Positions 12,796 through 30,937 of a DNA stretch of 64,000 bases are shown here, piece by piece. The DNA comes from Deltaproteobacteria bacterium (GTDB lineage: Bacteria; Myxococcota_A; Polyangia; Polyangiales; Polyangiaceae), in contig JACRCQ010000007.1 of the NCBI GenBank assembly GCA_016218915.1, positions 1-64,000 on the forward strand, written 5' to 3'. The notes under the pieces are model-generated. The model was not told the origin of the DNA. It searched no databases and was given only the letters and a program-made list of their open reading frames with translations. Each line of letters begins with the position of its first letter. Positions within the stretch are counted from its first letter, which is position 1. The translations under genes and the position numbers were made by a program.

Positions 12796-14295
12796 TCACT
12801 CCGACTCGCTCCCGGCGATGCGCGCTGGACGCGTCGGGTCATCGGTGGACGGATTCGGCTCCACGTGCCGAGGCTGATACAAGAATAGGTCGTTGCCCAT
12901 CGCCCGCCGGAGACGATAGTGCGCAAGGATGGTCTCGCGCATGGCAGGAGACCAGGCTGGCGCAGTCCCCCGCTCCAGATCCGTGCCGGTGGCGATTACA
13001 TCCACCTTCTCCTCGCGGATCATTGCGAGGACCGCGTCAGGGTCGATGCGATGGCTCTCCACCAGCCGCGTGAAGATGTACGGCTCGATCACCATCAGCT
13101 CCGCTCCCACCCGCAAGGCTGGGGAGCAGTCCACAGTGAGCACACGCTTGCCTGTCATGATCCGTCGAAGCTCTGGCTCCCAGCCCATTCGCTCTTCCCG
13201 GTCCCGGTGCCCGTCCTGCAAGCCGCGCGCTGAAGCCACGAGCGTGATCGCCCCTGCTGCGAGGGCAACGCAATGGATCTCCACGTTGCGTCTCTGGCGG
13301 AACAGGACCGAGGAGAGGACAGGCCCCATGATCATTCCGCTCTCGAGGAACACGTTCAAGTACGCACCCACGTTGAGCACGACCAGAAATGCAACGCACG
13401 TCGCGAGTAGAAGATAGACCGAAACGGGGCGCTCCATCTCCTTGCCATTGGCCAGGCTGGACAGGGCCAGCGCACAGGCTAGGGGCAGCGTCAGTGCAGC
13501 GGCTGCGAGCTGGATTCGGTCCAGGCCCCCCTGGACATGGAGGTGATTCCGATTGAAGACAAAGACCGCGGTCACAAATCCCCCGTCGCTCTGCAGCCAG
13601 AGCCCGGCCAATGCTATCGCGGCCAAGGCCACGCAGCTGACCGCAAAAGCCATGGCCGCACGTCGTTGATTCCGCCACAGACGGGTCATGAACACAGCGG
13701 CCGGAGCTGCGATCGCCGTGGGCTTGGTGTACAGGGCCAGCACGAGCAGCACAGGCGAAAACCACGACTTCTTGCCCCGCTCCTGGGCCAGGACGAATCC
13801 GCAAATGGCCAATGCAACGGCCACCATGTCGACCCGGTTGAGCACGGCATGCATGGAGACCACCGGGTAGCCCATGGACAGGACGAGCGCGCCCGCAGCA
13901 TAGGCTCGCGGCAGCTGCAGGTGATGACGCGAGAAGCGCCAGAGCGCTGCCAGACAGGCCATCAGGGCGCACAGAGACACGAGCCGTCCCGGAAGAAACG
14001 ACACTCCTTGCCCCAAGCCGCGCAGCGCCCAGGCTCCCAGATAGTAGAAGACTGGACCGTAGAGATTGACCTGATACGGAGGCGCCTGCCAGCTCGACGA
14101 CGCGTAGAGCGGCACTCCATGGCTCAGCCCGACCTGGGCTGCGAGGATCGTTGGCTCCACCGGATCGCTCGGAATGTCATGGGCGAGGACGTCGATGCAC
14201 GCGGCAATCCCGCACAAGGCTGCCAGGCCAAGGGTGGTCCATACCGCCACCCGAAGCCACATGGCCGCCTTGGGTTGCGCCACTGCCGCGATCAT
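12796..14295 (-). CDS. Polytopic membrane protein, GT39-like
   Basis: 499 aa, many TM segments; N-terminal DVLAHDIPSDPVEPTILAAQVGLSHGVPLY. Confidence 0.6.
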   Translation of the reverse strand: MIAAVAQPKAAMWLRVAVWTTLGLAALCGIAACIDVLAHDIPSDPVEPTILAAQVGLSHGVPLYASSSWQAPPYQVNLYGPVFYYLGAWALRGLGQGVSFLPGRLVSLCALMACLAALWRFSRHHLQLPRAYAAGALVLSMGYPVVSMHAVLNRVDMVAVALAICGFVLAQERGKKSWFSPVLLVLALYTKPTAIAAPAAVFMTRLWRNQRRAAMAFAVSCVALAAIALAGLWLQSDGGFVTAVFVFNRNHLHVQGGLDRIQLAAAALTLPLACALALSSLANGKEMERPVSVYLLLATCVAFLVVLNVGAYLNVFLESGMIMGPVLSSVLFRQRRNVEIHCVALAAGAITLVASARGLQDGHRDREERMGWEPELRRIMTGKRVLTVDCSPALRVGAELMVIEPYIFTRLVESHRIDPDAVLAMIREEKVDVIATGTDLERGTAPAWSPAMRETILAHYRLRRAMGNDLFLYQPRHVEPNPSTDDPTRPARIAGSESE

Positions 14296-14729
14296 CCGCG
14301 AGCTGTTCGCGTCTCGGCCCAGCTCACGGCGAGAGCGAGCTCACGCTCCATCGGAAGAAACGCAGCGAAGAAGTCTCCTGGGAGCCCATCGCGTGCCACC
14401 TGTTCCAGGTTGGCGCACGCTGCTGCTGCGCGCTTCGCATGCACGTTCAGGCTCATGCCTCGGAGACGATGCGCGATACGGGCAAGGCCTGGCGCATCGC
14501 CACTGAGCAACGCCTGCCGAGCAAGCTCCACGTGCTCGGGGCACTCCTTCTTCATCACGGAAAGCACGAGCTGCAGCAGCTCCTGGTCCCCGCCAAGCTG
14601 TCGGAGCGCGCCTTCGTAGTCGATCGGGGCGCTATCGGCTGGCGAGACGACCGCATGCAGACGTGGTTTGTCCGCGGCCAGAGTCGAAGGCTCGATGCTC
14701 TCTGCGTGGGCGTGGTTGGAGTGGGGCAT
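14292..14729 (-). CDS. Hpt (histidine phosphotransfer) domain protein
   Basis: LARIAHRLRGMSLNVHAKRAAAACANLEQVA; overlaps the next gene by 4 bp. Confidence 0.8.
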   Translation of the reverse strand: MPHSNHAHAESIEPSTLAADKPRLHAVVSPADSAPIDYEGALRQLGGDQELLQLVLSVMKKECPEHVELARQALLSGDAPGLARIAHRLRGMSLNVHAKRAAAACANLEQVARDGLPGDFFAAFLPMERELALAVSWAETRTARG

Positions 14730-14751
14730 GATTTCCTCGCGCTTCAGACCC

Positions 14752-14872
14752 AGTCTCAGGCAGGTTTCGGGCCACAGCGGGTGCGCGTACAAGTCCGTGT
14801 ACTTATGCGAGCTGCGCCTGCGGACCCAGAGCCACTCCATCAAGCTGGCGCTCTGGCTCCTTCAATTCGAGG
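14752..14872 (-). repeat. Copy C of three-copy dispersed leader element
   Basis: Block-wise identity to copy B (see 5864-5987); ends ~22 nt upstream of the Hpt start. Confidence 0.7.
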
Positions 14873-14997: not shown

Positions 14998-15456
14998 ATG
15001 ACGAGCCGCAAGCGGGTGCTGGTCGCGGACGACGAGGAGACGACGCGTCTCATCCTGCACTCCACCCTGGTGCACTGGGGCTACGACGTGACGGTGTGCG
15101 AGGATGGGGAGGAGGCGTACCGGTTGCTCAACCAGGAGGGCTCGCCTGATGTGGCGTTGCTCGATTGGATGATGCCTGGCATGGATGGCGTGTCGCTGTG
15201 CAGGGAGCTTCGGAAGCGCGAGCGGACCGCGAACAAGTACTTGATCCTGCTGACGACGCGCACGGAGAAGGAAGACCTGGTCCAGGGGCTGCAGTCCGGC
15301 GCGGACGACTATGTGACCAAGCCTTTTGACATGCGGGAGCTCAAGGAGCGTCTGCTGGTGGGCCAGCGTACGGCGTCGTTCAGCCCGAGGCAGGAAAGCC
15401 CTGGCTCTGTCCATCCTCGGCCGATGGGACTGTCGCGAGTCTCTCCATCGAAGTGA
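14998..15456 (+). CDS. Single-domain response regulator with short tail
   Basis: VLVADDEETTRLIL...VALLDWMMPGMDG...LLTTRTEKEDL...VTKPFD. Confidence 0.9.
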   Translation: MTSRKRVLVADDEETTRLILHSTLVHWGYDVTVCEDGEEAYRLLNQEGSPDVALLDWMMPGMDGVSLCRELRKRERTANKYLILLTTRTEKEDLVQGLQSGADDYVTKPFDMRELKERLLVGQRTASFSPRQESPGSVHPRPMGLSRVSPSK

Positions 15457-15601
15457 CGCGGACGGTCCATCAATATGAAGGAGCAAAGCCGCCCCGCAGG
15501 AGCGTCCAGGGCGTAAGTGCGCGGACTTGCTATGGGGCGGCTGGTGGCGCGGAACCTGCAGCAACTGGGGGGAACCTTGCTCACGGGCGGAGGATGCGTT
15601 T

Positions 15602-16018
15602 GTGGGATACGACAATTCAGGCGCGCGCTCTCTCGCCAATGCGCTGTTCGACGCGAGCCTCAAGCCGCTGCCCGCGCAGCCAGGCAGCCGCGAGCTGTGC
15701 GTGGCCTATGAGGCCCTGTTCGGCGACCTGTACCACAAGCTGCGCCTGATGATCGGACACCGCGGCGTCACGGTCGTGCTCCGCCGCGCCATCGTGCTCA
15801 GCTCGCGCGATCACGCGATCCTCGATGTGCTCACCACCACGGACGGGGGCATTGCGTTCGCGGCGCTGCGCGGCCGGCGTCCCGCCGCGGATCCCGCTGA
15901 GCTGCAGCCTGCGGTCCTGGACCTGCTGACCACGGCGCTGGACGATCTCTGCCGGCTCATCGGTGCAGATCTGCTGTCGGTCATCCTCAGAGGCTCGGCT
16001 CAACCCCAAAGGACGTAG
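15602..16018 (+). CDS. Small helical protein, KaiC-operon partner family (member 1)
   Basis: GTG start with GGAGG upstream; colinear similarity to 17735-18148; ends 3 nt before the KaiC-like gene. Confidence 0.6.
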   Translation: MGYDNSGARSLANALFDASLKPLPAQPGSRELCVAYEALFGDLYHKLRLMIGHRGVTVVLRRAIVLSSRDHAILDVLTTTDGGIAFAALRGRRPAADPAELQPAVLDLLTTALDDLCRLIGADLLSVILRGSAQPQRT

Positions 16019-16021
16019 CTT

Positions 16022-17731
16022 GTGCTCGAATCCGGAAGCGTGAAGATCGCCGTGATACCCACGGGCATCCCGAACCTGGACCCGGTGCTTGGCGGTGGCT
16101 TGCCCGAGCTGTCCACCACAGTCGTGGGAGGTCTGGTTGGCACGGGCAAGACCACGCTTGCCCAGCAGATATCGTTTCACGTGGGCACGCCTGAGCATCC
16201 GACGATCTACTTCACGACGCTGGGCGAGCCCACGCTCAAGCTGCTCCGCTACCAGCAGCAGTTCAGCTTCTTCGACTCCTCCAAGGTGGGGACCTCGGTG
16301 CACATCATCGATGTCGGCTCCGAGGCTGCGGACAAGGGCACCATCGGCGCACTGCAGGAGATCGGGTCGCACGTCGAACGTCTTTCCCCTCGCCTGGTCG
16401 TGGTGGACTCGTACCGGGCCATTGACGACCTCAGCGGAGGGAATCCTGCCCGGTGGCGTCTGTTCACCCGCGAGCTGGTGGAGCTGTTGGCCGGCTGGCA
16501 GTGTACAGCGCTGCTTCTCGGCGAATACACGGAGGAGCAAGTGGGCGTGGGACCTGAGTTCACGGTGGTGGACAATGTCATCTACCTGTCACAGGAGATG
16601 CACCACAACTCGGTCCTGCGCAGGCTGCGGGTGATCAAGATGCGGGGGCAGGCGCCCCAACCTGGACGTCACGCTTTCCGCGTTCTGGACCGGGGGCTCG
16701 AGGTCTACCCCCATTTGCCGGTGATCGCAGATGCGCCGCGACGTCGCAAGGGCGGACGCGCCAGCACCGGAATCCCCGGGCTCGACGAGATGATGACAGG
16801 GGGTATTCCGCGCGGGCAGACCTGCGTGGTGGCTGGCAGCTCCGGGGTCGGCAAGACGCTGATGGCACTGCACTTTGCAGTAGCAGGCGCACGAGCGGGC
16901 GAGCCTTGCGTGATGGTGACCTTTGAGGAGAGTCCGGCCGAGCACGCGGAGAAGATGGCAGCCTTTGGGTGGGACCTCGCGGATCTCGAGAAGCGCGGAT
17001 TGATTCGGATGGTCTATCTTCGACCGGTCGATCTATCCCTGGACGAGGTGATGTACACGATCAGCGCCGCGGTCGACGACTTCAAGGCCAGGCGGGTCGT
17101 CATCAACTCCATCTCGGGCATGGAGACGGCGCTGCCCCAGACCGAGCAACCCGAGCTGGTGGAAGGGCTCTACCGGCTATGCGCCAATCTGACTGCCCGT
17201 GGTCTGGTGGTGATGCTCACCACCGAGGTACCTGACAGCTTCGGCGGTATCCGCCTCTCCGGGCAAGGGCTGTCGTTCCTCTCCGACAACGCGATCCTCT
17301 TGCGATACGTGGAGATCGCCGGGGAGCTGCGTCGCGCGCTGATCATCGTCAAGATGCGCACCTCGAAGCACGAGGGCACGCTCCGCGAGTACCGGATCGA
17401 CGCACAGGGGATCGTCCTCGACAAGTCGTTCAGGGACTACTACGGGGTATTGACCGGAGCGCCGACGTTGCGCGCCGTCCAGGAGCCTCGACCTTTCACC
17501 AAGGGGCTGGCTCCCAACGAGGAGGCTGCGATGAACACGCTTCTCTCGCTCAAGCGAGCCGACCCCCAGCAGGTCGCTGACGCGCTGGGCAGCGACCTCC
17601 ACGAGACCCGCCACCTGCTCGATCGCCTCGAGGAGACAGGCTATGTCATCCGTACGGACAAGGATGGCGCTCACACCTATCGGGTCGCACTGCTCGCGCA
17701 GCCTGGACCGCCCGGACGCAAGAAGGTGTAG
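16022..17731 (+). CDS. Two-domain KaiC-like ATPase with C-terminal winged-helix-like extension
   Basis: Walker A motifs GGLVGTGKTT and GSSGVGKT; GIPNLDPVLGGGLP and GIPGLDEMMTGGIPRGQ; CVMVTFEESPAEH...FGWDL. Confidence 0.9.
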   Translation: MLESGSVKIAVIPTGIPNLDPVLGGGLPELSTTVVGGLVGTGKTTLAQQISFHVGTPEHPTIYFTTLGEPTLKLLRYQQQFSFFDSSKVGTSVHIIDVGSEAADKGTIGALQEIGSHVERLSPRLVVVDSYRAIDDLSGGNPARWRLFTRELVELLAGWQCTALLLGEYTEEQVGVGPEFTVVDNVIYLSQEMHHNSVLRRLRVIKMRGQAPQPGRHAFRVLDRGLEVYPHLPVIADAPRRRKGGRASTGIPGLDEMMTGGIPRGQTCVVAGSSGVGKTLMALHFAVAGARAGEPCVMVTFEESPAEHAEKMAAFGWDLADLEKRGLIRMVYLRPVDLSLDEVMYTISAAVDDFKARRVVINSISGMETALPQTEQPELVEGLYRLCANLTARGLVVMLTTEVPDSFGGIRLSGQGLSFLSDNAILLRYVEIAGELRRALIIVKMRTSKHEGTLREYRIDAQGIVLDKSFRDYYGVLTGAPTLRAVQEPRPFTKGLAPNEEAAMNTLLSLKRADPQQVADALGSDLHETRHLLDRLEETGYVIRTDKDGAHTYRVALLAQPGPPGRKKV

Positions 17732-17734
17732 CGC

Positions 17735-18148
17735 ATGGTCAACAAGAGCACGGCCTCCAAGCGCGTCCGACCCCTCCCCACCGCCGCGGCGTTGGAGGCG
17801 GTCCGCCAGGATTCTCTGAGCACCTACCGCCGGGTCACGGACATCATCTGGCAGCGTCTTTCCCCTACCTTCGGCATTCGCACCATCAACGCCATCGCGC
17901 GCAGCGTGATCGTCCGCGAGCAAGGCAAGCACCCGCTGCTTGGCCACCTCGGAGTCAACGACAGCGGATTGGACTGGAGCGAGTTCGAGCGCCGCGCGCA
18001 GGCGGTCACTCCGAGGAGCATGCAGCAATCCATCGACTGCTTCATCAATGCGTACTTCGAGGCACTGGCCAACATGATCGGACACATCGTCGTGAGCAAG
18101 CTGTTCAACGATGCGGAGGGGACCGCGATCGAGGAGGCCAGACCTTGA
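17735..18148 (+). CDS. Small helical protein, KaiC-operon partner family (member 2)
   Basis: 137 aa immediately upstream of and overlapping the second KaiC-like gene. Confidence 0.65.
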   Translation: MVNKSTASKRVRPLPTAAALEAVRQDSLSTYRRVTDIIWQRLSPTFGIRTINAIARSVIVREQGKHPLLGHLGVNDSGLDWSEFERRAQAVTPRSMQQSIDCFINAYFEALANMIGHIVVSKLFNDAEGTAIEEARP

Positions 18149-19569
18149 GCCGGACGCGCAAGCCCGGGCTGCGGCGCTTCGCCACTGGCGTGGCTCCGCT
18201 CGATCAGCTCCTGGGCGGAGGACTGCCTGCGTATTCCGTGGTGATCCTCGCGGGCGAGCCTGGCACTGGCAAGACCATCCTCTCGCAGCAGATGCTCTTT
18301 GCCAACGCTGCGCAGGGACGCAAGGGGATGTACTTCACCACGGTTTCGGAGTCGCCGATCAAGGTAGCGCGCTACCAGTCGGAGTTCTCCTTCTTCGACC
18401 CGGACAAGTTCGGCGAATCCGTGGTCTACACCGATCTGGGCGAGATCATCCGGCGCCATCAGCTCGGCAATGCTGTGGAGATGATCGCCGAATCTCTCCG
18501 GCAGCACCAACCCGCCCTGGTCGTGATCGATTCCTTCCGGGCGATTCACGATCTGTCTCCCTCGCCCAAGGAGATGCGCACATTCTCCTATGACCTTGCG
18601 GTGGAGCTGTCAGCGATCCAGACCACCACGATCCTGATCGGTGAATACACCACAGATGAGATCGGCACGGCGCCAGAGTTCGCGGTAGCCGACGGCATCA
18701 TCTGGATGACTCTGCACCGAACCGATCCAGGTGGGTCGCGCTCCCTGCAGATCCTGAAGATGCGCGGCGCAGCTCCGCCGATCACGCCGTTCAGCTTTGA
18801 CATCAGCCGCGATGGGCTCACCATTCATGCCCTGATTGCCAAGCCTGGCAGCGACGAGCTGCCGCCGACCGGGCAAAGAGAGCCGGCACAGACCGGCGTG
18901 TCAGGCCTCGACGAGCTGCTCCGCGGCGGCATCCCGTCCGGCGCACCGGTGCTGATCTCGGGTGAAGCCGGCACAGGCAAGTCCACGCTCGGAATGCAAT
19001 TCCTTCATCACGGCGCTGCGGCTCTGGGCGAGGTCGGCCTGTACTTCTCCTACGAGGAGCAGCCCCCGCAGCTCATCGCCAATGCTCGCAAGTTCGGATG
19101 GGATCTCGTGCCGTTGATTCAGCAGAGCCTGGTCCAGATCCATCACACGCCGCTATCGCACGTGAACCTCGACGCCGAGAATCTCCGCGTGCAGGACCTT
19201 TTGGCCAAAACCGGCGCCAAGCGCGTGTTCATCGACTCGCTCACCATGATGGGCCACGCGATCCTCAAGCCCGAGGCGCTCCGAAGCCACGTGTTCAGCC
19301 TCACGCGCGTGCTGCGGGCCTCGGGTGCCACGGCCCTGGTCACCACGGATCCCCCGGCTGGCTCTGGGTTGATCAGCCGGTTCGGGGTCGAGGAGTCGAT
19401 CCTGGACGGGGTCATTCTGCTGCGCAATGTCAAGGTTGCCCGTGACCGCAAGCGACAGATCGAGGTCTACAAGATGCGAGGCGTGGCGCACGCGACCGGC
19501 GAGCACTTGATGCGCATCACCTCCAAGGGAATGCAGGTCTTCCCGCGCTGCGAGGAGGTGGGGCTATGA
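18145..19569 (+). CDS. Two-domain KaiC-like ATPase
   Basis: GEPGTGKTI and GEAGTGKST; VAPLDQLLGGGLP and VSGLDELLRGGIPSG; LYFSYEEQPPQLIANARKFGWDL. Confidence 0.9.
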   Translation: MSRTRKPGLRRFATGVAPLDQLLGGGLPAYSVVILAGEPGTGKTILSQQMLFANAAQGRKGMYFTTVSESPIKVARYQSEFSFFDPDKFGESVVYTDLGEIIRRHQLGNAVEMIAESLRQHQPALVVIDSFRAIHDLSPSPKEMRTFSYDLAVELSAIQTTTILIGEYTTDEIGTAPEFAVADGIIWMTLHRTDPGGSRSLQILKMRGAAPPITPFSFDISRDGLTIHALIAKPGSDELPPTGQREPAQTGVSGLDELLRGGIPSGAPVLISGEAGTGKSTLGMQFLHHGAAALGEVGLYFSYEEQPPQLIANARKFGWDLVPLIQQSLVQIHHTPLSHVNLDAENLRVQDLLAKTGAKRVFIDSLTMMGHAILKPEALRSHVFSLTRVLRASGATALVTTDPPAGSGLISRFGVEESILDGVILLRNVKVARDRKRQIEVYKMRGVAHATGEHLMRITSKGMQVFPRCEEVGL

Positions 19570-20330
19570 AGGGCAGGCATCTTCCACGAGCTACCAAGGC
19601 CGGGACCGCGCCCTACGGGGCAGCTGGAGCGCCCTGCTGGATCGGAGTCCCTGGCATCGACGAGCTGCTTCCGGATGGAGTCCGGTACGGCAACCAGATC
19701 ATGTGCATGGGCGACACGGGCATTGGCAAGACCGTGCTTGCGGCGCAGTTCCTGTACGAGGGTCTGCTCGTGGGCGACCGGTGCATCTACGTCGCATGCG
19801 ACGAATCGCCGGAGAGCATGCGGATGAACATGGCGGGCCTGCGAATCGGCACGCTCGCCTATGAGAGGGCGAATCGTCTGATGTTTCTCGATGCCTATGG
19901 CCGGGAGCGATCCACCGAGCCGTTCTCCGTCTCCTCGCCCAATGACCTCGACGAGTACTTTGCCAGCGAGCGTCTCGCGATCAAGCATGTAGGCACGGAC
20001 CGGCCCGTACGGCTGGTGGTCGACTCACTGTCCACCATCTTCGGCACTGCGGATCGGAGCGCCATCCTGGCGTTCAATCGCATCCGGCTGCGGTTCTTGA
20101 CAGCCCACGGCGTGCTGACGCTCGACAACTACGTAACCGGCCTGCTGGACGATCAGACTCTTGCCGGGCTCTCCCATGCCTATCCGCTGATCCTCAAGTT
20201 CAGCTATCACGAGTCCAACGGAGACATGCAGCGGGTCCTGCAGCTCGGCAAGCTGCGCAGCGGCATGTTCAGCGGGCAGAAGCGCAACTTCCGCATCGAC
20301 AAACGCGTGGGCATCGTGGCCCAGGGCTGA
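19566..20330 (+). CDS. Single-domain KaiC/RAD55-like ATPase
   Basis: GVPGIDELLPDGVRYGNQIMCMGDTGIGKTVLAAQFLYEGLLVGDRCIYVACDESPESM. Confidence 0.85.
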   Translation: MKGRHLPRATKAGTAPYGAAGAPCWIGVPGIDELLPDGVRYGNQIMCMGDTGIGKTVLAAQFLYEGLLVGDRCIYVACDESPESMRMNMAGLRIGTLAYERANRLMFLDAYGRERSTEPFSVSSPNDLDEYFASERLAIKHVGTDRPVRLVVDSLSTIFGTADRSAILAFNRIRLRFLTAHGVLTLDNYVTGLLDDQTLAGLSHAYPLILKFSYHESNGDMQRVLQLGKLRSGMFSGQKRNFRIDKRVGIVAQG

Positions 20331-20347
20331 GCCGAAAGGAGCACTGC

Positions 20348-20908
20348 ATGCCGGTAGCCAGCAAGAGATCCCGCAGGCCTGACCCTGGAATCCAGGACAT
20401 CCTCAGCGCCGAGGCTGGACAGCTCAAGGTCGGCACCGCCCGCGCCATGGTCATGACCGAGACCGCCTTCAACGTGCTGCAGCAGGTCATCAGCGAGCAG
20501 ACGCCCGAATTCCTGGTCTACGGCTTCTACGAGATGGGCTACCGCGTAGGGCTGGACATCGCCGCATCGAGTGCTCTGGAGGCGGACGCTCCGGAGGACG
20601 CGTTCCGCGTCTGCGTGGATACCTATCGAAAATCCGGGTACGGAGAGGTCGAGGTCGTGGAGTTCGACATCCGCGAGCCGAGCGCGCGGCTGCGTGGCAC
20701 GAACCTGCTGGAAGCCGCGGCCGCTCGTGGCGGCAGCATGGTCCGATCGCCCCGGGCGATATGCCACTACAGCCGGGGCATGTTCGCAGGCCTCTTCTCC
20801 CGAATCCTCGGCAAGGAAGTGGTCTGCGAAGAGCTTGCCTGCGAGTACCGCAACGACCCCTGCTGCGAGTTCACCGTGCTCGCCTTTGGCGGCCAGCCCA
20901 CCGGCTGA
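20348..20908 (+). CDS. V4R (4-vinyl-reductase-type) domain protein
   Basis: HYSRGMFAGLFSRILGKEVVCEELACEYRNDPCCEFTV. Confidence 0.8.
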   Translation: MPVASKRSRRPDPGIQDILSAEAGQLKVGTARAMVMTETAFNVLQQVISEQTPEFLVYGFYEMGYRVGLDIAASSALEADAPEDAFRVCVDTYRKSGYGEVEVVEFDIREPSARLRGTNLLEAAAARGGSMVRSPRAICHYSRGMFAGLFSRILGKEVVCEELACEYRNDPCCEFTVLAFGGQPTG

Positions 20909-21055: not shown

Positions 21056-22456
21056 ATGACCATCTCGTGCAATCAGCCGCTCGACCTTCCTGCCATGGCA
21101 CGGGAAGGCGACGTCATTGCCGAGAAGTACCGCGTCGACCGCGTCATTGGCGAAGGCGGGATGGCCTTCGTGCTCGCCGCCCGCCACCTGCAGCTCGACC
21201 GAGTCGTTGCGCTCAAGATCCTCAAGCCCGAGCTGTTCTCGAGCCCCGGCGCAGTCGAGCGCTTCGCACGCGAGGCACGGTCGGTCGCAGGCCTGTCCAG
21301 CGAGCATGTTGCCAGGGTGCTGGACGTCGGCACCTTGGACAGCGGCGTTCCTTTCCTGGTCATGGAGCACCTGCAGGGCTTGGACCTCGGGTTCGTGCTC
21401 GACGCGCGTGGACGACTTCCGCTGGCCGAGGCGGTTGATCTCGTGCTGCAGGCCATTGACGCAATCGCAGAAGCGCACGCGCAGGGGATCGTGCACCGGG
21501 ACCTCAAGCCCGAGAACCTGTTTCTCACCCGGCGATCCGACGGCGCTCCGTTCATCAAGGTGCTGGACTTCGGAATTGCCACGGCTGCAGCAACGCAGGA
21601 GCAGCCAGAGACAAGCGTGACGCGGTCCAGCAGGACCTTCGGATCGCCCGCGTACATGTCGCCCGAGCAGATCCGCTCTGCCCATGACGTGGATGCGAGG
21701 TCGGACGTATGGGCGTTGGGCGTGATTCTCTACGAGCTGGTGTCAGGCAAGCGGCCCTTTGTCGCGGAATCCGATGCAGACACGTGCGCCATCGTGCTGC
21801 GCGACGAGCCGCCCGCGCTCGACGGGGTGTGCCCGGAGCTTCCCGCTGACTTCGTGTCCATCGTCCATCAATGCCTTGACAAGGACCCTGGCCTGCGCAT
21901 CGCCGACGTCGCCAGGCTCGCCAGCGCGATTGCGCCTTTTGGCTCGGCCTCTGCCCTCGAATCCGCAGAGAGAGTCCGCGCAATCCTCGATAGCGGCTCT
22001 CGCCCCTTTCGGCAGCTGCGCATCGTTGCGGGCAAGGAACGCAAGGTGTCGGGCAACGCAGTGACCGAGGACGGCAACCCTCGAGCCTCCGACGAGCTGC
22101 AAGGAGCGGCCAAGCCGTCACGAAGCAAGGCGGCGCTATTCGCAGCGGCAGCAGTCGGGCTGTTGACCCTGGCCATGGTGGGTATTCACGGCGCCAACCG
22201 CGGCATTGCCCGTGCAGCCACGACCTCCGGTGCCGCGCTCAGCCCAGGCCTGGCGTCCAGGGCCGCTGTGGAGACTTCTGGGTCGTATCGACCTGTACCG
22301 CTGCTGATCGCCGTGGCTGCCCCGGTGGGCAACGCGTCGGCAGCGCCGTCGCCCGAGCCGGTGACCCCAATCGTCTTGCTCTCGCGAATCCCCTCCTCCC
22401 CTGTCGCCGCGTCCCCCCCACGCAAGCGCCCTGATCTCTACGGCACCCGAAGGTAG
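21056..22456 (+). CDS. Ser/Thr protein kinase (Hanks type), membrane-anchored
   Basis: [50 protein letters not shown] helix [20 protein letters not shown]. Confidence 0.93.
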
Positions 22457-24253: not shown

Positions 24254-25894
24254 TCAAGAATCCAGCAGCCCGCCCGCGCCGTAGGCCTTGAGCTTTCGGT
24301 ACAGCGTCGCTGACCCGATCTTCAGCTGCTTGGCTGTGTGGGTATGATTCCCTCCGTTCAGCTCCAGCGCCGCAAGGATGTACTCCTTTTCGATGTCGCC
24401 GAGCGGGCGCACGCTTCCCTGCGCTGCGATGCGCGAAGGACGCGCGTTTCGGATCTCCTCGGGCAGGTCGTCGAGCTCCACGCGCGCGCCGCGCGCCAGG
24501 GCGACCACGTGCTCCATCGCGTTCTCCAGCTCGCGCACGTTGCCTGGCCAATCATAGCGCAGGAGCTGATCCGCTGCTTCTGGCGCCAGGCCCACGAGCT
24601 TGCACTGGGTCCGCGCTGTCGCGTCTGCCAGCAGCGCCCGCGCCAGCGGCAGGATGTCGTCCCTGCGATCCCGCAGCGGTGGAACGAGCAGCTCCACGAC
24701 CTTGAGGCGGTAATACAGGTCCTGTCGGAACGTGCCGTCCAGAACGCCTTGGCCGAGGTCGCGGTTCGTGACAGCCACGACGCGGACATCGACGCTTCGG
24801 CTCTTGCTCTCGCCCACGCGGCGGATGTCCCGCTCCTGCAACGCCCGAAGGAGCTTGACCTGCATGCCGGGTGAGACCTCGCCCACCTCGTCGAGCAGGA
24901 GCGTGCCGTTGTTGGCAGCCTCGAACAGGCCCGGACGATCCTGCATCGCGCCGGTGAACGCCCCGCGCGCGTGTCCGAACAGCTCGCTTTCCAGGAGCGT
25001 CTCCGTGATGGCGCCGCAGTTGACCGCCACGAAGGGGCCGGCCGCCCGCGCGGACTCGTCGTGAACGAGCCGAGCGATACGCTCCTTGCCTGACCCGCTT
25101 TCGCCGGTGATCAGCACGGTGGAGTCGACTCGAGCCACGCGACGCGCCAGGTCCACGACCTGCAGCATCGAGGCGCTCTTTGCGACAATCCCTGCGGGCT
25201 CCAGGACCGTGGGAGCAACGCACACCAGCGCCCGGCGGTGCTCACGGAGCTTTCGCTCGGCGAGCTTGAGCGTGTCGATGACCTGGCGCAGGGAAATGTC
25301 GAGGCTCGCACGGAGGCGCTTCCGATCGAAGAACCGAAGCTCCTCGGCGCGCTTGTCCCCCCACTCGTCGCGGGTTCGCCCGATCAGGTGGCAAGCCGCA
25401 TCGCCCTTGCCCAGGCACCGATCCTCCAGGACATAGAGCTCCTTGCCGCTGCTCTTGCTGTGGTAGCCGCTGATGAGGCCGGAAACCGTCCAGCAGACAG
25501 GCTCGTCCGCCGGGCCGAAGTGCAGCAGATGCTGCTCCGCCTCGTACGAGGCAACGAGCGTCACGCCCTCCTTGGACAGCGGGCTGCCGTCCCCTGGCTC
25601 CACCTTGAAGAGGCCTTCCAGGGCGTAGATGCGAGCAGCACGACGCCAGTGCTCGGAGCCGTCGTGGTTGGACTCGGAAGCCATCGCTTCGGCCATGCGC
25701 CAACCTTGCGCAAAGCCGAACTGGGTGAGCACCGATCGGGCAGCGACCGTGCCGAAGTTGTCGACAAGGTACTTTCGCAAGATCCCCATCGCCACCGCGT
25801 CGAGCAGCAGCGCACGCTGGCCCGCGAAGCGGATTGTGCCGCCCGCCGGGTCGAGCTCCAGGAGCTCGTGGTGATCCAGGTCCTCTGCCCGCAT
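24254..25894 (-). CDS. Sigma54-dependent regulator with XylR-N and V4R sensory domains
   Basis: [26 protein letters not shown] motif, ARIYALEG / [23 protein letters not shown]4R region, C-terminal Fis-type HTH. Confidence 0.92.
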
Positions 25895-26369: not shown

Positions 26370-29300
26370 ATGGCAGCGGTTGCCGAGATTGCTTCTACCA
26401 CCACGGTGGTCGGTGTGGGCGCATCGGCCGGCGGAATCGAGGCGCTTCGCCTCCTGTTCCAGCAAATGCCGATCGACACCGCGATGGCCTTTGTGGTCGT
26501 CCAGCATCTGCTCCCGTCCCACGCCAGCATGCTGCGCGACACGATCGCGGCTGTGACCCGTCTTCCGGTAGTCGAAGCGACCGACCGTATGATCGTGGAG
26601 CCGGATCATGTCTACGTGATCACGCCCAACGTCGAGCTTCGACTGCTCCGGGGTGCGCTCGAGCTGAGCCCCCGCCGCGACGGCGTCAAACGGCACTTGC
26701 CCATTGACCTGCTGTTCCAGTCGCTTGCGACCGAGCTGGGTGCGCGGGCCATTGGAGTGGTTCTATCAGGCACGGGGAGCGACGGCACCGAGGGCCTGAA
26801 AGCCATCAAGGACAAGGATGGGATCACCATGGCGCAGACGCCGCAGTCTGCGCAATTCCCCGGTATGCCGGAGAGCGCCCTTGCATCCGGCGCGGTGGAC
26901 TATGAGCTAGCGCCGGAAGCGATGGCCGTGGAGCTGGCTCGGCTTGCCAAGGATCCGCACTTCAACGGGGCGATGGAACCTGCTGTGGAGCCTGCGGACG
27001 ACGAGAGCTACGCAACCATTCTCCAGATGCTGCACGAGGCTTCAGGAACCGACTTCTCCGGCTACCGGAGCACGACGCTCGCCCGACGGATCGCCCGTCG
27101 CATGGCCATATGCGGCGTGGTCGAGCTCCCGAGCTATGCGGACCGTCTGCGCCACGACCCGGGCGAATGCAAGCTCCTGGCCGAAGACATCCTCGTGCAT
27201 GTCACCGCGTTCTTTCGGGATCCCGAGGTCTTCGACGCGTTCAAGCAGCACGTCTTCCCCGCGATCACCGCTTCCAAGAAGCCAGGGGACGTGATCAAGA
27301 TCTGGATCCCGGGGTGCTCCACAGGCGAAGAGGTCTACTCCACAGCCATCGCGCTTCTGGAGTTTCTCGACGACACCTCGTCCGACTTCAACGTTCAGAT
27401 CTTTGCCACCGATCTCAGTGCGCCTGCGATCGACAGGGCTCGCGCTGGGCAGTACAGCGCAGACAGCCTTCGCGACTTGGGAGCTGAGCGCCTCCAGCGG
27501 TTCTTCACGGCGAGCGAGCGTGGCTATCGGATCAGCAGACGCGTCCGCGACCTCTGCGTATTCGTGGTCCACGATGTGACGCGCGATCCGCCGTTCGCAG
27601 CGCTGGACCTGATCAGCTTCCGCAACGTTCTCATCTACCTCGGCCCGGAGCTGCAGAAGCGGGTCCTTCCCATGTTCCACGCGTGCCTGAACTCGCCAGG
27701 CTTCCTGTCGCTGGGACGCAACGAGGGGGTGTTCGGCTTCCGCGAGCTGTTCGCTCCGATCAGCGGCGACCGTCGCATCTTCTCCAAGACCGGCGAGAGC
27801 AGCCGCAAGACCTATACCATGTCCCATTCGCGCCCTGGAATCAGGGTTCCTTCAGGCGCGTTCGGGGTCCCCTCGCAGCGGCCTCGACCGGTGGCAGACG
27901 CAGTACGGCAGGTCGACCACATCCTTCTCGATCGCTACGCCCCGCCTGGCGTCATCGTCAACGACAAGCTCGAGGTCGTGCAGTTCCGAGGCCGCACCGG
28001 GCGCTTCCTGGAGTCTCCTCAGGGCCACCCGCAGACCGAAGTGCTCAAGATGGCGCGAGATGGGCTGCTCATGGAGCTTCGGCCCCTTCTGGACGAAGCG
28101 ATTCGCACAGGCGCGGCTGCGCGCAAAGAAGGTATTCGGATTGAGCAGGATGCAGGCGAAGTCACGGTCACGGTCGAGGTCTTGCCTTTGCCGAAGCTCT
28201 TGGACGCGAGCCAGAAGCACTACCTGGTCTTGTTCGAGAGCGCGCAGGAAGTCGTGGCGGTCCACCCGCCGCTCCCCCTTGCAGACCTGTCCGGCGTCGA
28301 GCACCAGGAGCTGGCTCGGACCAGGCAGGAGTTGGGGGGAATGCGGCAGTTCGTGCAATCGCTCACAGAGGAGTACCAGCGGGCCGATGACGATCTCGCT
28401 GCTGCCAACGAGGAGCTGGTTGCCTCCAACGAGGAGCTTCAGAGCACCAACGAGGAGCTGGAGAGCGCCAAGGAGGAGCTTCAGGCGGCCAACGAAGAGC
28501 TGTCCACGCTCAACGACGAGCTGCGCTCGCGCAACAAGGAGCTCGACCAGAGCGCGTCCGACCTCGTCAATGTGCAGGACAGCGCAGGCATCCCGCTCGT
28601 CATCGTCGACGCGAGCAGGAAGGTCCGCCGCTACACCCCGCTCGCGGTGGACATGTTCCACATCCTGCCGTCCGACATCGACCGACCCATCTCCGAGATC
28701 AAGCCCAGAATCACCGTGGGCGACCTGGATCAACGGATCAGCCTCGTCATCCAGGACGGGGTGGCGCGCGAGTGGGAGGTGCAGGACCGCGACGGCCACT
28801 GGCAGCGCCTGCAGATTCATCCCTACCGCTCTGCGGACGGGCATGTGGATGGAGCGGTCATCTCGCTGGTGGAGATCGATCAGCTCAAGCGGGCCGTGGC
28901 CGAGGCAGAGCGCGCGAGCAGGGCCAAGGACATGTTCCTGGCGACGCTTTCGCACGAGCTGCGCACGCCGCTCGGAGCGATCCTTTTGCAGGCCCAGCTC
29001 CTGCAAGGATCGAGCGACAAGAAGACACTCGACGTGAGCGCTGCGATCGCCCGCGCTGTCAAGCTGCAGACCACGCTCATCGAGGATCTTCTCGACGTCT
29101 CGCGCATCACCGCGGACAAGCTCGTGCTCGATGTCCGGCCTGTCGAGCTGGCCGAGCTGGTGCGTGAGGCGGCGGAGCTGCAGCGCCCTGCCGCTGACAT
29201 CAAGAAGGTCCAACTCGAGCTGACGATTCCGGACGGAGTGGGCCAGGTGATGGGAGACTCGGTCCGCATCCAGCAGGTGGTGTTCAACCTGCTCAGCAAT

Positions 29301-30032
29301 GCCATCAAGTTCACGCCGAGCGGAGGCCACGTTGCACTTGTTCTCAATTGCGCTGCAGGCACGGCCTTCATCCGGGTGAGCGACACGGGCGTCGGGATCG
29401 ATCCCGTGTTCTTGCCTCGCGTCTTTGACACCTTCACCCAGGCGGACAGCTCTTCAGCGCGACACCACGGCGGGCTCGGGCTCGGGTTGTCCATCGTACG
29501 ACGCCTGGTGGAGATGCACGGTGGAACGGTCCGCGCCGAGAGCCTCGGCAAGGACCAGGGGGCCAAGCTCACCGTCAGCTTCCCCCTGCTCAGCGACAGA
29601 CCTTCGGCATTGCCACCCCCTGCTTCGACCGAGCGGCTGAGCCTGAGGGGAATCCGCGTGCTCGTGGTCGACGACGACGGTGTGACGCGTGCCGGATTGG
29701 CAGGCGTGCTCCGGATGCATGACGCAGAAGTCCGTGCTGCCTCCACAGCAGCAGAAGGGTTGCAGGCCTTGATCGAATTCCGTCCCCAAGCGCTCCTCAG
29801 CGATCTCGCGATGCCCGGCGAAGACGGCCTCGCATTCATCTCCAAGGTGAGGGCGTTGCCGCCTGAGCACGGGGGGAGCACCCCGGCAGCAGCCCTGAGC
29901 GCCATGGCCGCTGGCAAGGACAGCGAGCGGGCGCTCGCTGCTGGATTCCAGACATATCTGACCAAGCCGATTGATGTGGACACGCTCGTATCCGCAGTCA
30001 CGAAGCTCGCCCGGACCACGGTGGCCGCGTGA
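26370..30032 (+). CDS. CheB-CheR-PAS hybrid sensor histidine kinase with C-terminal receiver
   Basis: GVGASAGGIEALR (CheB), IWIPGCSTGEEVYS (CheR), NEELxSxNEELxS coiled coil, SHELRTPLGAIL H-box, GLGLGLSIVRRLVEMHGG, LVVDDD...SDLAMPGEDG. Confidence 0.95.
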   Translation: MAAVAEIASTTTVVGVGASAGGIEALRLLFQQMPIDTAMAFVVVQHLLPSHASMLRDTIAAVTRLPVVEATDRMIVEPDHVYVITPNVELRLLRGALELSPRRDGVKRHLPIDLLFQSLATELGARAIGVVLSGTGSDGTEGLKAIKDKDGITMAQTPQSAQFPGMPESALASGAVDYELAPEAMAVELARLAKDPHFNGAMEPAVEPADDESYATILQMLHEASGTDFSGYRSTTLARRIARRMAICGVVELPSYADRLRHDPGECKLLAEDILVHVTAFFRDPEVFDAFKQHVFPAITASKKPGDVIKIWIPGCSTGEEVYSTAIALLEFLDDTSSDFNVQIFATDLSAPAIDRARAGQYSADSLRDLGAERLQRFFTASERGYRISRRVRDLCVFVVHDVTRDPPFAALDLISFRNVLIYLGPELQKRVLPMFHACLNSPGFLSLGRNEGVFGFRELFAPISGDRRIFSKTGESSRKTYTMSHSRPGIRVPSGAFGVPSQRPRPVADAVRQVDHILLDRYAPPGVIVNDKLEVVQFRGRTGRFLESPQGHPQTEVLKMARDGLLMELRPLLDEAIRTGAAARKEGIRIEQDAGEVTVTVEVLPLPKLLDASQKHYLVLFESAQEVVAVHPPLPLADLSGVEHQELARTRQELGGMRQFVQSLTEEYQRADDDLAAANEELVASNEELQSTNEELESAKEELQAANEELSTLNDELRSRNKELDQSASDLVNVQDSAGIPLVIVDASRKVRRYTPLAVDMFHILPSDIDRPISEIKPRITVGDLDQRISLVIQDGVAREWEVQDRDGHWQRLQIHPYRSADGHVDGAVISLVEIDQLKRAVAEAERASRAKDMFLATLSHELRTPLGAILLQAQLLQGSSDKKTLDVSAAIARAVKLQTTLIEDLLDVSRITADKLVLDVRPVELAELVREAAELQRPAADIKKVQLELTIPDGVGQVMGDSVRIQQVVFNLLSNAIKFTPSGGHVALVLNCAAGTAFIRVSDTGVGIDPVFLPRVFDTFTQADSSSARHHGGLGLGLSIVRRLVEMHGGTVRAESLGKDQGAKLTVSFPLLSDRPSALPPPASTERLSLRGIRVLVVDDDGVTRAGLAGVLRMHDAEVRAASTAAEGLQALIEFRPQALLSDLAMPGEDGLAFISKVRALPPEHGGSTPAAALSAMAAGKDSERALAAGFQTYLTKPIDVDTLVSAVTKLARTTVAA

Positions 30033-30937
30033 GCCAGGCCATCGATCAGAAAGACCTGGGCCTCGCGCTCCTGGGCAGATCGATGCCTCGCAAGTGCGGA
30101 GTTGCCGACGTATCCTCTGGGCGGCCCGACGCCCTCCCGGCTGGGGCGCTCCATCCGGCAGTCGGAGAATGGGTCGATGCGGACGGGCCAGGCCCCTACG
30201 CTTCGTCGACGATTGCTCGCATGCACACGCGGCGATCGCACGGTCTTCTGGTGGCTCCCGCTGGGCCCCAGGGAGCCTCCCACGTGCTCCTGTCGAATGT
30301 CGCAGCAACGGTCTTCGTGAACGGCGCGACGTTCTCCCTCGCGACAGACAAGTTCCCAGGCATCGAGCCCACCGGAGGCTACAAGCACGTATCGGTCTTT
30401 GCCGAAGACCCTCTGCCGCGCTGGGAATACTTGGTGGGCGGCTACAAGCTCGAGCACACCCTCGGGATCGTGCGCGGCCACGCAGCGGTGGTCCTGCGCT
30501 ACACGTGGCGCGGGCCCCTGGGCGCGGTTCTCGAAGCCCGCCCTTTGCTCGCCATGCGGCCTGCAGACGAGCTCATGAGCGAGCACGGTGGTCTGATCAA
30601 CGAAGTGCGCATACGCTCCGGCGAAGCGGTCGTGCGCCCGGTTGCCTCCCTGCCCACCATGGCGTTCCGCTACCAGGGAACGTTCGTCGGGTCGCCGGAC
30701 TGGTGGCGGCGCTTCGAGTATGTCGGTGACCGTGATTGCGGGCTGAGCTACCAGGAGGATCTCTGGACCCCTGGCGTGATTCGCAAGGTCCTCGTTCCTG
30801 ACCAGGATGTGTTCATCGTGTGCGCAATGCATTCCCTGCCGGGCGATACGGGAGAGGAGCTGCTGCAGCGATCTGCCGAGATCGCCCAGCAGGGCGTTGA
30901 CACGGTCTCTCCTGCCAAAGCGTTCACGCAGGGATGA
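30029..30937 (+). CDS. Standalone glycogen-debranching-enzyme N-terminal (GDE_N) domain protein
   Basis: GEWVDADGPGPYASSTIARMHTRRSHGLLVA, KFPGIEPTGGYKHV, WEYLVGGYKLEHTL; no catalytic C-terminal domain follows. Confidence 0.75.
   Translation: MSQAIDQKDLGLALLGRSMPRKCGVADVSSGRPDALPAGALHPAVGEWVDADGPGPYASSTIARMHTRRSHGLLVAPAGPQGASHVLLSNVAATVFVNGATFSLATDKFPGIEPTGGYKHVSVFAEDPLPRWEYLVGGYKLEHTLGIVRGHAAVVLRYTWRGPLGAVLEARPLLAMRPADELMSEHGGLINEVRIRSGEAVVRPVASLPTMAFRYQGTFVGSPDWWRRFEYVGDRDCGLSYQEDLWTPGVIRKVLVPDQDVFIVCAMHSLPGDTGEELLQRSAEIAQQGVDTVSPAKAFTQG

Follow-up and report, generated by a model that had tools for sequence, protein, structure and literature searches.

Most bacteria that carry KaiC have no KaiA and many have no KaiB, and how such KaiCs are controlled is an open question. 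Makarova, Galperin and Koonin are said to have proposed in 2017 that KaiC-like ATPases serve as signalling hubs in archaea (cited in PMC5847659). In cyanobacteria, the sites at which KaiA binds KaiC are the A-loop (Glu487-Ile497) and the C-tail (PMC6549140). A survey of myxobacterial KaiCs describes proteins with A-loop homology, without KaiA or the KaiB-binding B-loop, mostly without kaiB and in many cases with a single phosphosite (PMC11832031). Here, we analyzed a six-gene operon located at positions 15602-20908 of a 64,000-nucleotide (nt) stretch of DNA (hereafter, the window) from a Polyangiaceae genome (Deltaproteobacteria bacterium, GCA_016218915.1, contig JACRCQ010000007.1, positions 1 to 64,000 of the forward strand). 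On balance, we favour the reading that this operon encodes a KaiC signalling system lacking KaiA and KaiB, composed of two modules that each pair a small protein (sp) with a KaiC (sp1-KaiC1 and sp2-KaiC2), a single-domain KaiC3 and a soluble V4R sensor, in which the small proteins would be dedicated KaiC regulators.

The six genes are all on the (+) strand and are separated by successive gaps of 3, 3, -4, -4 and 17 nt. This arrangement, proposed by a first-pass annotation made from the sequence alone, proved exact in a check of the open reading frames, and Pfam agreed with the gene identities given there. The sp1 gene (15602-16018, GTG start) encodes a small, mostly helical protein of 138 aa and is paired with KaiC1 (16022-17731, GTG start), which contains two PF06745 domains (5e-79). 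The second small protein, sp2 (17735-18148, ATG start; 137 aa), is paired with KaiC2 (18145-19569, TTG start), also with two PF06745 domains (8e-89). They are followed by KaiC3 (19566-20330, ATG start), which has one divergent domain (PF06745, 2e-26), and by the V4R protein (20348-20908, ATG start; 186 aa; Pfam V4R 3e-11, XylR_N 0.003), a candidate ligand sensor. All five KaiC domains exceed the cut-off of the KaiC superfamily model PF06745 and contain Walker A, and no match to sp1 or sp2 was obtained when the operon proteins were scanned with Pfam and NCBIfam. The start of sp1 is uncertain, as its reading frame is already open from a TTG at 15527; a purine-rich Shine-Dalgarno-like sequence precedes most of the six starts. 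The coding nature of the six genes is beyond doubt, given that each has an orthologue in another phylum and that the gene order is kept there.

The overall interpretation offered by the first-pass annotation was borne out in part, but it missed the most informative feature, namely that sp1 and sp2 are paralogues (20% identity over 114 residues, pair E 2e-8) within a widespread, unnamed KaiC-linked family. Profiles grown outward from the two proteins found members immediately 5' of KaiC genes in other Myxococcota. GTDB genomes were also scanned for the KaiC1 clade, and the best-scoring 80 of at least 558 loci were used. These loci span Chloroflexota, Myxococcota, Acidobacteriota, Gemmatimonadota, Planctomycetota, Verrucomicrobiota, Pseudomonadota, Nitrospirota and Armatimonadota, plus Syntrophobacterales and Oligoflexus, and the sp-KaiC pairing occurs in at least ten phyla. 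The pairing is near-obligate: an sp gene was found immediately 5' of KaiC in 78 of the 80 loci with the iterated profile and in a 79th (L080) by gene annotation. Because the loci had been chosen by KaiC and not by sp, this association is not circular. In 41 of 76 loci, the distance between the sp stop and the start of KaiC is -4 nt, and in all 76 it lies between -17 and +22 nt, as measured to the KaiC start nearest the sp stop, a choice that favours short gaps. Neither the KaiB-type KaiCs of the source genome nor three receiver-type KaiC loci had an sp member in their vicinity.

When 101 sp members were compared singly with Pfam and NCBIfam, only scattered chance-level matches were obtained; the first ten members had no match in PHROGs, and the family had none in the PDB by sequence or profile. 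AlphaFold models of sp1 (predicted local distance difference test, pLDDT, 89.7; predicted template modelling score, pTM, 0.83; 101 sequences) and sp2 (pLDDT 89, pTM 0.71; 20 sequences) concur in a largely helical fold that includes a short beta hairpin, and Foldseek searches of both models against the PDB gave no match at E<=0.001. The possibility that sp is KaiA (PF07688), KaiB (PF07689) or a protein of another known fold was rejected, as neither profiles nor structures matched. A family member encoded on a Paracoccus plasmid is annotated in RefSeq as a 'hypothetical protein'; the genes after it encode a KaiC, a kinase of the HWE type and a response regulator. Tandem sp pairs 5' of one KaiC were also observed, mostly in Acidobacteriota (L090, L096, L098, L100, L107, L113 and L121). 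One Chloroflexota genome (G613, 3.5 Mb), which contains locus L159, gave seven sp matches, which suggests a strong expansion of the family.

To examine KaiC features, 104 KaiCs were aligned, almost all of them from the clade of KaiC1. Across this alignment, the FEE motif of the CI domain is replaced by LGEP or LSEP (SEP-type CI) and the FEE of CII is retained in most sequences, including KaiC1, which keeps its CII FEE glutamates. Ser occupies the S431 position in 89 of the 104 proteins, and Phe the T432 position in 94. KaiC1 likewise retains the Ser431 equivalent and has Phe at the Thr432 equivalent, KaiC2 has neither residue, and the paired phosphosites Ser431/Thr432 of circadian KaiC are therefore found in neither protein. 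Moreover, KaiC1 scores below the cut-offs of both canonical circadian KaiC models (NF006799, 258 bits versus 408; TIGR02655, 173.5 versus 546). Replacement of the CII Walker-B Asp by Asn is confined to the KaiC1 proteins of the operon and the KaiC of L075, which groups with them in the tree (support 0.96). The G.P motif of the A-loop is present in 87 KaiCs and missing from three receiver-type KaiCs and KaiC2. In a sequence comparison, the KaiC1 tail (VLTGAPTLRAV) aligns over the A-loop (ILSGSPTRIAA) of a solved KaiC; on this basis, KaiC1 appears to possess the A-loop of the KaiABC clock and KaiC2 to lack it.

KaiC2 retains two KaiC domains and branches (support 0.994) together with the three-domain KaiCs found in other Myxococcota, and sp2 groups with the small proteins of those three-domain KaiCs (support 0.841). 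As the KaiC2 and sp2 clades match, sp-KaiC pairs appear to have been inherited together. KaiC3 retains Walker A and B, with CDE in place of FEE. We considered whether KaiC2 and KaiC3 represent a simple split of a three-domain KaiC (712-723 aa; L017, L019 and L065), but KaiC3 is no closer to the third domain than to other KaiC domains and only the position agrees; this explanation was rejected.

The complete operon is conserved in a second phylum. In a Ktedonobacterales metagenome-assembled genome of Chloroflexota (L074), the order sp1-KaiC1-sp2-KaiC2-KaiC3-V4R is the same, with identities of 29, 51, 47, 53, 54 and 48%, respectively; two histidine kinase genes precede the operon and a receiver gene follows it. 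The same six genes are found in L159 (sp1 28%, others 45-53% identical), adjoined by a convergent histidine kinase/response regulator pair, and the same order was found in L160 (G581, Chloroflexota), with kinases at both ends of the operon. At 8681-9552 of L160, shortened KaiC2 and KaiC3 are joined in one frame, reflecting either a deletion or an assembly collapse. The sp2 orthologues in these three loci are 44-47% identical, V4R orthologues in the Chloroflexota loci are 48-56% identical, and KaiC3 orthologues (51-54%) were found only in the three Chloroflexota. KaiC3 was detected at E<=1e-20 in 3 of 400 sampled Chloroflexota and, at E<=1e-25 among 237 sampled Myxococcota, in the source genome only. 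The conservation of the neighbourhood thus holds for Chloroflexota but was not found in the sampled related Myxococcota. Given the order shared with Chloroflexota and the lack of KaiC3 in any other of the 237 Myxococcota, the operon is a rare, conserved unit that has probably moved horizontally between phyla.

The composition of the operon (GC 0.644 versus 0.653 for the window, with a third-codon-position GC resembling that of neighbouring genes) nevertheless matches the host and gives no sign of recent transfer. Origin from a phage or plasmid element was also discarded: KaiC2 has no phage match, and the plasmid-borne KaiCs that match KaiC3 are distant ones (28-31% identity among the matches listed). 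The proposal that this is an undescribed KaiC/V4R operon, and not a canonical clock, is supported by the order kept in two phyla, the small proteins unnamed in the libraries and the literature, since no description of the operon was found in open-access full texts on KaiC with V4R, although it may have been described elsewhere or under another name.

Under the favoured reading, KaiC1 and KaiC2 would form ATPase rings, and each sp would bind its own KaiC and set its nucleotide or phosphorylation state in a KaiA-like manner. Most simply, sp1 would contact KaiC1 at the A-loop tail, and sp2 would use a different surface of the tail-less KaiC2. The V4R protein would bind a small ligand and pass the signal into KaiC3/KaiC2. 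As output, KaiC1 would act on DNA by way of its winged-helix tail, the signal would pass to the linked histidine kinases and response regulators, or both. This reading is drawn from the six-gene synteny, the position of sp 5' of KaiC in 79 of 80 loci with its -4 nt gaps, a kinase near at least 55 of the 80, the absence of sp at KaiB-type and receiver-type KaiCs, and the prevalence of the A-loop motif together with the alignment of the KaiC1 tail to this KaiA-binding element. Further grounds are the KaiC2 and sp2 clades that travel together, the metal-ligand spacing of the V4R protein, and the receiver-sp fusion and sp-kinase pairs described below.

The V4R domain (PF02830) of the last gene scores 43.8 bits (Pfam cut-off 31), and its Cys139, Cys165 and Cys173 are spaced (Cys-x25-Cys-x7-Cys) like Cys151, Cys177 and Cys185, which bind zinc in DmpR, with an ambiguous fourth ligand; Cys139 is replaced by Asp in the L074 and L159 orthologues.

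Several observations weigh against the favoured reading. The sp fold resembles neither KaiA nor any PDB entry, so that the KaiA-like role is argued only from gene position and the A-loop. KaiC2 has an sp partner yet no A-loop, the Trp of the DmpR phenol pocket is not evident in the operon V4R, and no histidine kinase adjoins the operon in the window. In addition, sp-like genes repeatedly occur immediately 5' of GAF-PAS histidine kinases in Chloroflexota (L176-L191; weak matches, E 1e-7 to 1e-11), with no KaiC recognised within the 1.5-kb flanks and domain names assigned by inspection and a kinase profile; sp may thus act on the kinase instead. These loci bring forward the main rival, a somewhat unlikely one, in which sp is a partner of two-component proteins that docks on histidine kinases or receivers, the KaiC ring is targeted further downstream or in parallel, and the response regulator at 14998-15456 of the window acts through sp1. 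The same rival would account for a receiver-sp fusion in Chloroflexota (L174, G505, reverse strand), a single 240-aa frame followed by a pentapeptide-repeat-like protein, and for the receiver genes that hold the place of sp 5' of KaiC in three receiver-KaiC-histidine kinase loci of Myxococcota (L042 9009-10791, L043 8389-10190 and L047 9217-10976). However, the kinase-linked sp matches are weak compared with the KaiC-linked ones, sp adjoins KaiC and not the kinase in sp-KaiC-histidine kinase loci, and sp sub-lineages track KaiC sub-lineages.

The tail of KaiC1 raises another alternative. A winged-helix-like segment at approximately residues 495-554, with weak TrmB/MarR matches in Pfam, is kept in 4 of 4 KaiC1 orthologues, and no kinase gene adjoins the operon in the window. 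The KaiC1 ring could then be a direct KaiC-type transcription factor that binds DNA through these tails, with sp, KaiC3 and V4R only tuning its assembly to a ligand and no need of a phosphorelay. We regard this as quite improbable: each of the three homologous operons has kinases at its flanks or next to it, and most of the sp-linked KaiCs in the 450-510 aa range have no such tail. The coupling to a phosphorelay suggested in the first-pass annotation is supported by this genomic linkage, as well as by the histidine kinases found within 3-4 kb in at least 55 of the 80 sp-KaiC loci, an undercount because the kinase profile misses HWE types.

With regard to the surroundings in the window, a response regulator with a single receiver domain (14998-15456, (+) strand, 152 aa; Pfam Response_reg 1e-28) lies 145 nt 5' of sp1, where it had been placed by the first-pass annotation; it is a candidate upstream partner and would belong to the operon transcript. 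The Hpt gene reported upstream is present at 14292-14840, but lies on the (-) strand, divergent from the operon. Downstream, a Hanks-type kinase (21056-22456, (+) strand), a XylR_N-V4R sigma54 activator (24254-25894) and a CheB/CheR hybrid kinase (26370-30032, (+) strand; followed by a glycogen debranching enzyme gene, total span 26370-30937) are all present as listed, except that the activator is on the (-) strand. No kaiA or kaiB was recognised among the operon and flanking genes scanned, in agreement with the earlier claim. In the source genome (9.2 Mb, 81 contigs), three kaiB genes were found, only on contig C72, which carries two KaiC loci with hybrid histidine kinases (L016 3477-14357).

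The activator, together with a sigma54-like site 5' of sp1 (TGGCGCGGAACCTGCA, TGGCGC-N5-CTGCA, 15545-15560), is what would speak for a V4R-sensing KaiC system with sigma54-dependent output, as first suggested. Nevertheless, the activator is encoded on the opposite strand, 3.3 kb away with other genes between, its V4R domain and that of the operon are only distantly alike, and none of the three homologous operons had a recognisable activator gene of this kind nearby. The site was picked post hoc and is not present 5' of those operons, and it was rejected as a promoter. A sigma54 output is thus very improbable.

The sp gene, in nearly every case translationally adjacent to a KaiC of one large clade and absent from the family libraries searched, offers a direct candidate, open to testing, for the KaiC regulator that is missing, and the operon shows how sp-KaiC modules are joined to a ligand sensor and to two-component proteins. 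More speculatively, and in our opinion unlikely, the sp family could be an overlooked counterpart of KaiA that is not homologous to it, acting as a dedicated activator that grips the A-loop of this widespread KaiC clade across ten or more phyla. KaiC-based timers or integrators would then work in bacteria without KaiA or KaiB, and the operon, with its two pairs and its ligand sensor, would represent an elaborate version of them.

Compared with cyanobacterial KaiABC (structures such as 1tf7 and 8zn5), KaiC1 shares the two domains, the CII FEE, the Ser at the S431 position and the A-loop-like tail, but differs in its CI motif (LGEP/LSEP for FEE), in Phe for Thr432 and in Asn for the CII Walker-B Asp, while the operon lacks KaiA and KaiB and adds a small partner, a third KaiC and V4R. 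Non-cyanobacterial KaiC-KaiB-histidine kinase loci, such as those on C72 (L016), likewise link a two-domain KaiC to hybrid kinases, but have kaiB genes in place of sp and no sp member. The receiver-KaiC-histidine kinase loci of Myxococcota (L042, L043 and L047) have the same KaiC clade with the SEP motif and the same three-part layout, whereas a receiver protein replaces sp and their KaiC ends without an A-loop. With the sensors DmpR, MopR and XylR, the operon protein shares the V4R domain, in which three Cys residues are spaced as in DmpR; in contrast, the operon V4R is a stand-alone protein without a sigma54 AAA domain. The small partner is not mentioned in the passages available from the myxobacterial survey (PMC11832031), nor is V4R in its text. 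The idea of KaiC as a signalling hub is shared with the archaeal proposal; here, the operon is bacterial and adds V4R and a small partner without a name. KaiC signalling is already known, and the operon is a new form of it with an unnamed, widespread partner.

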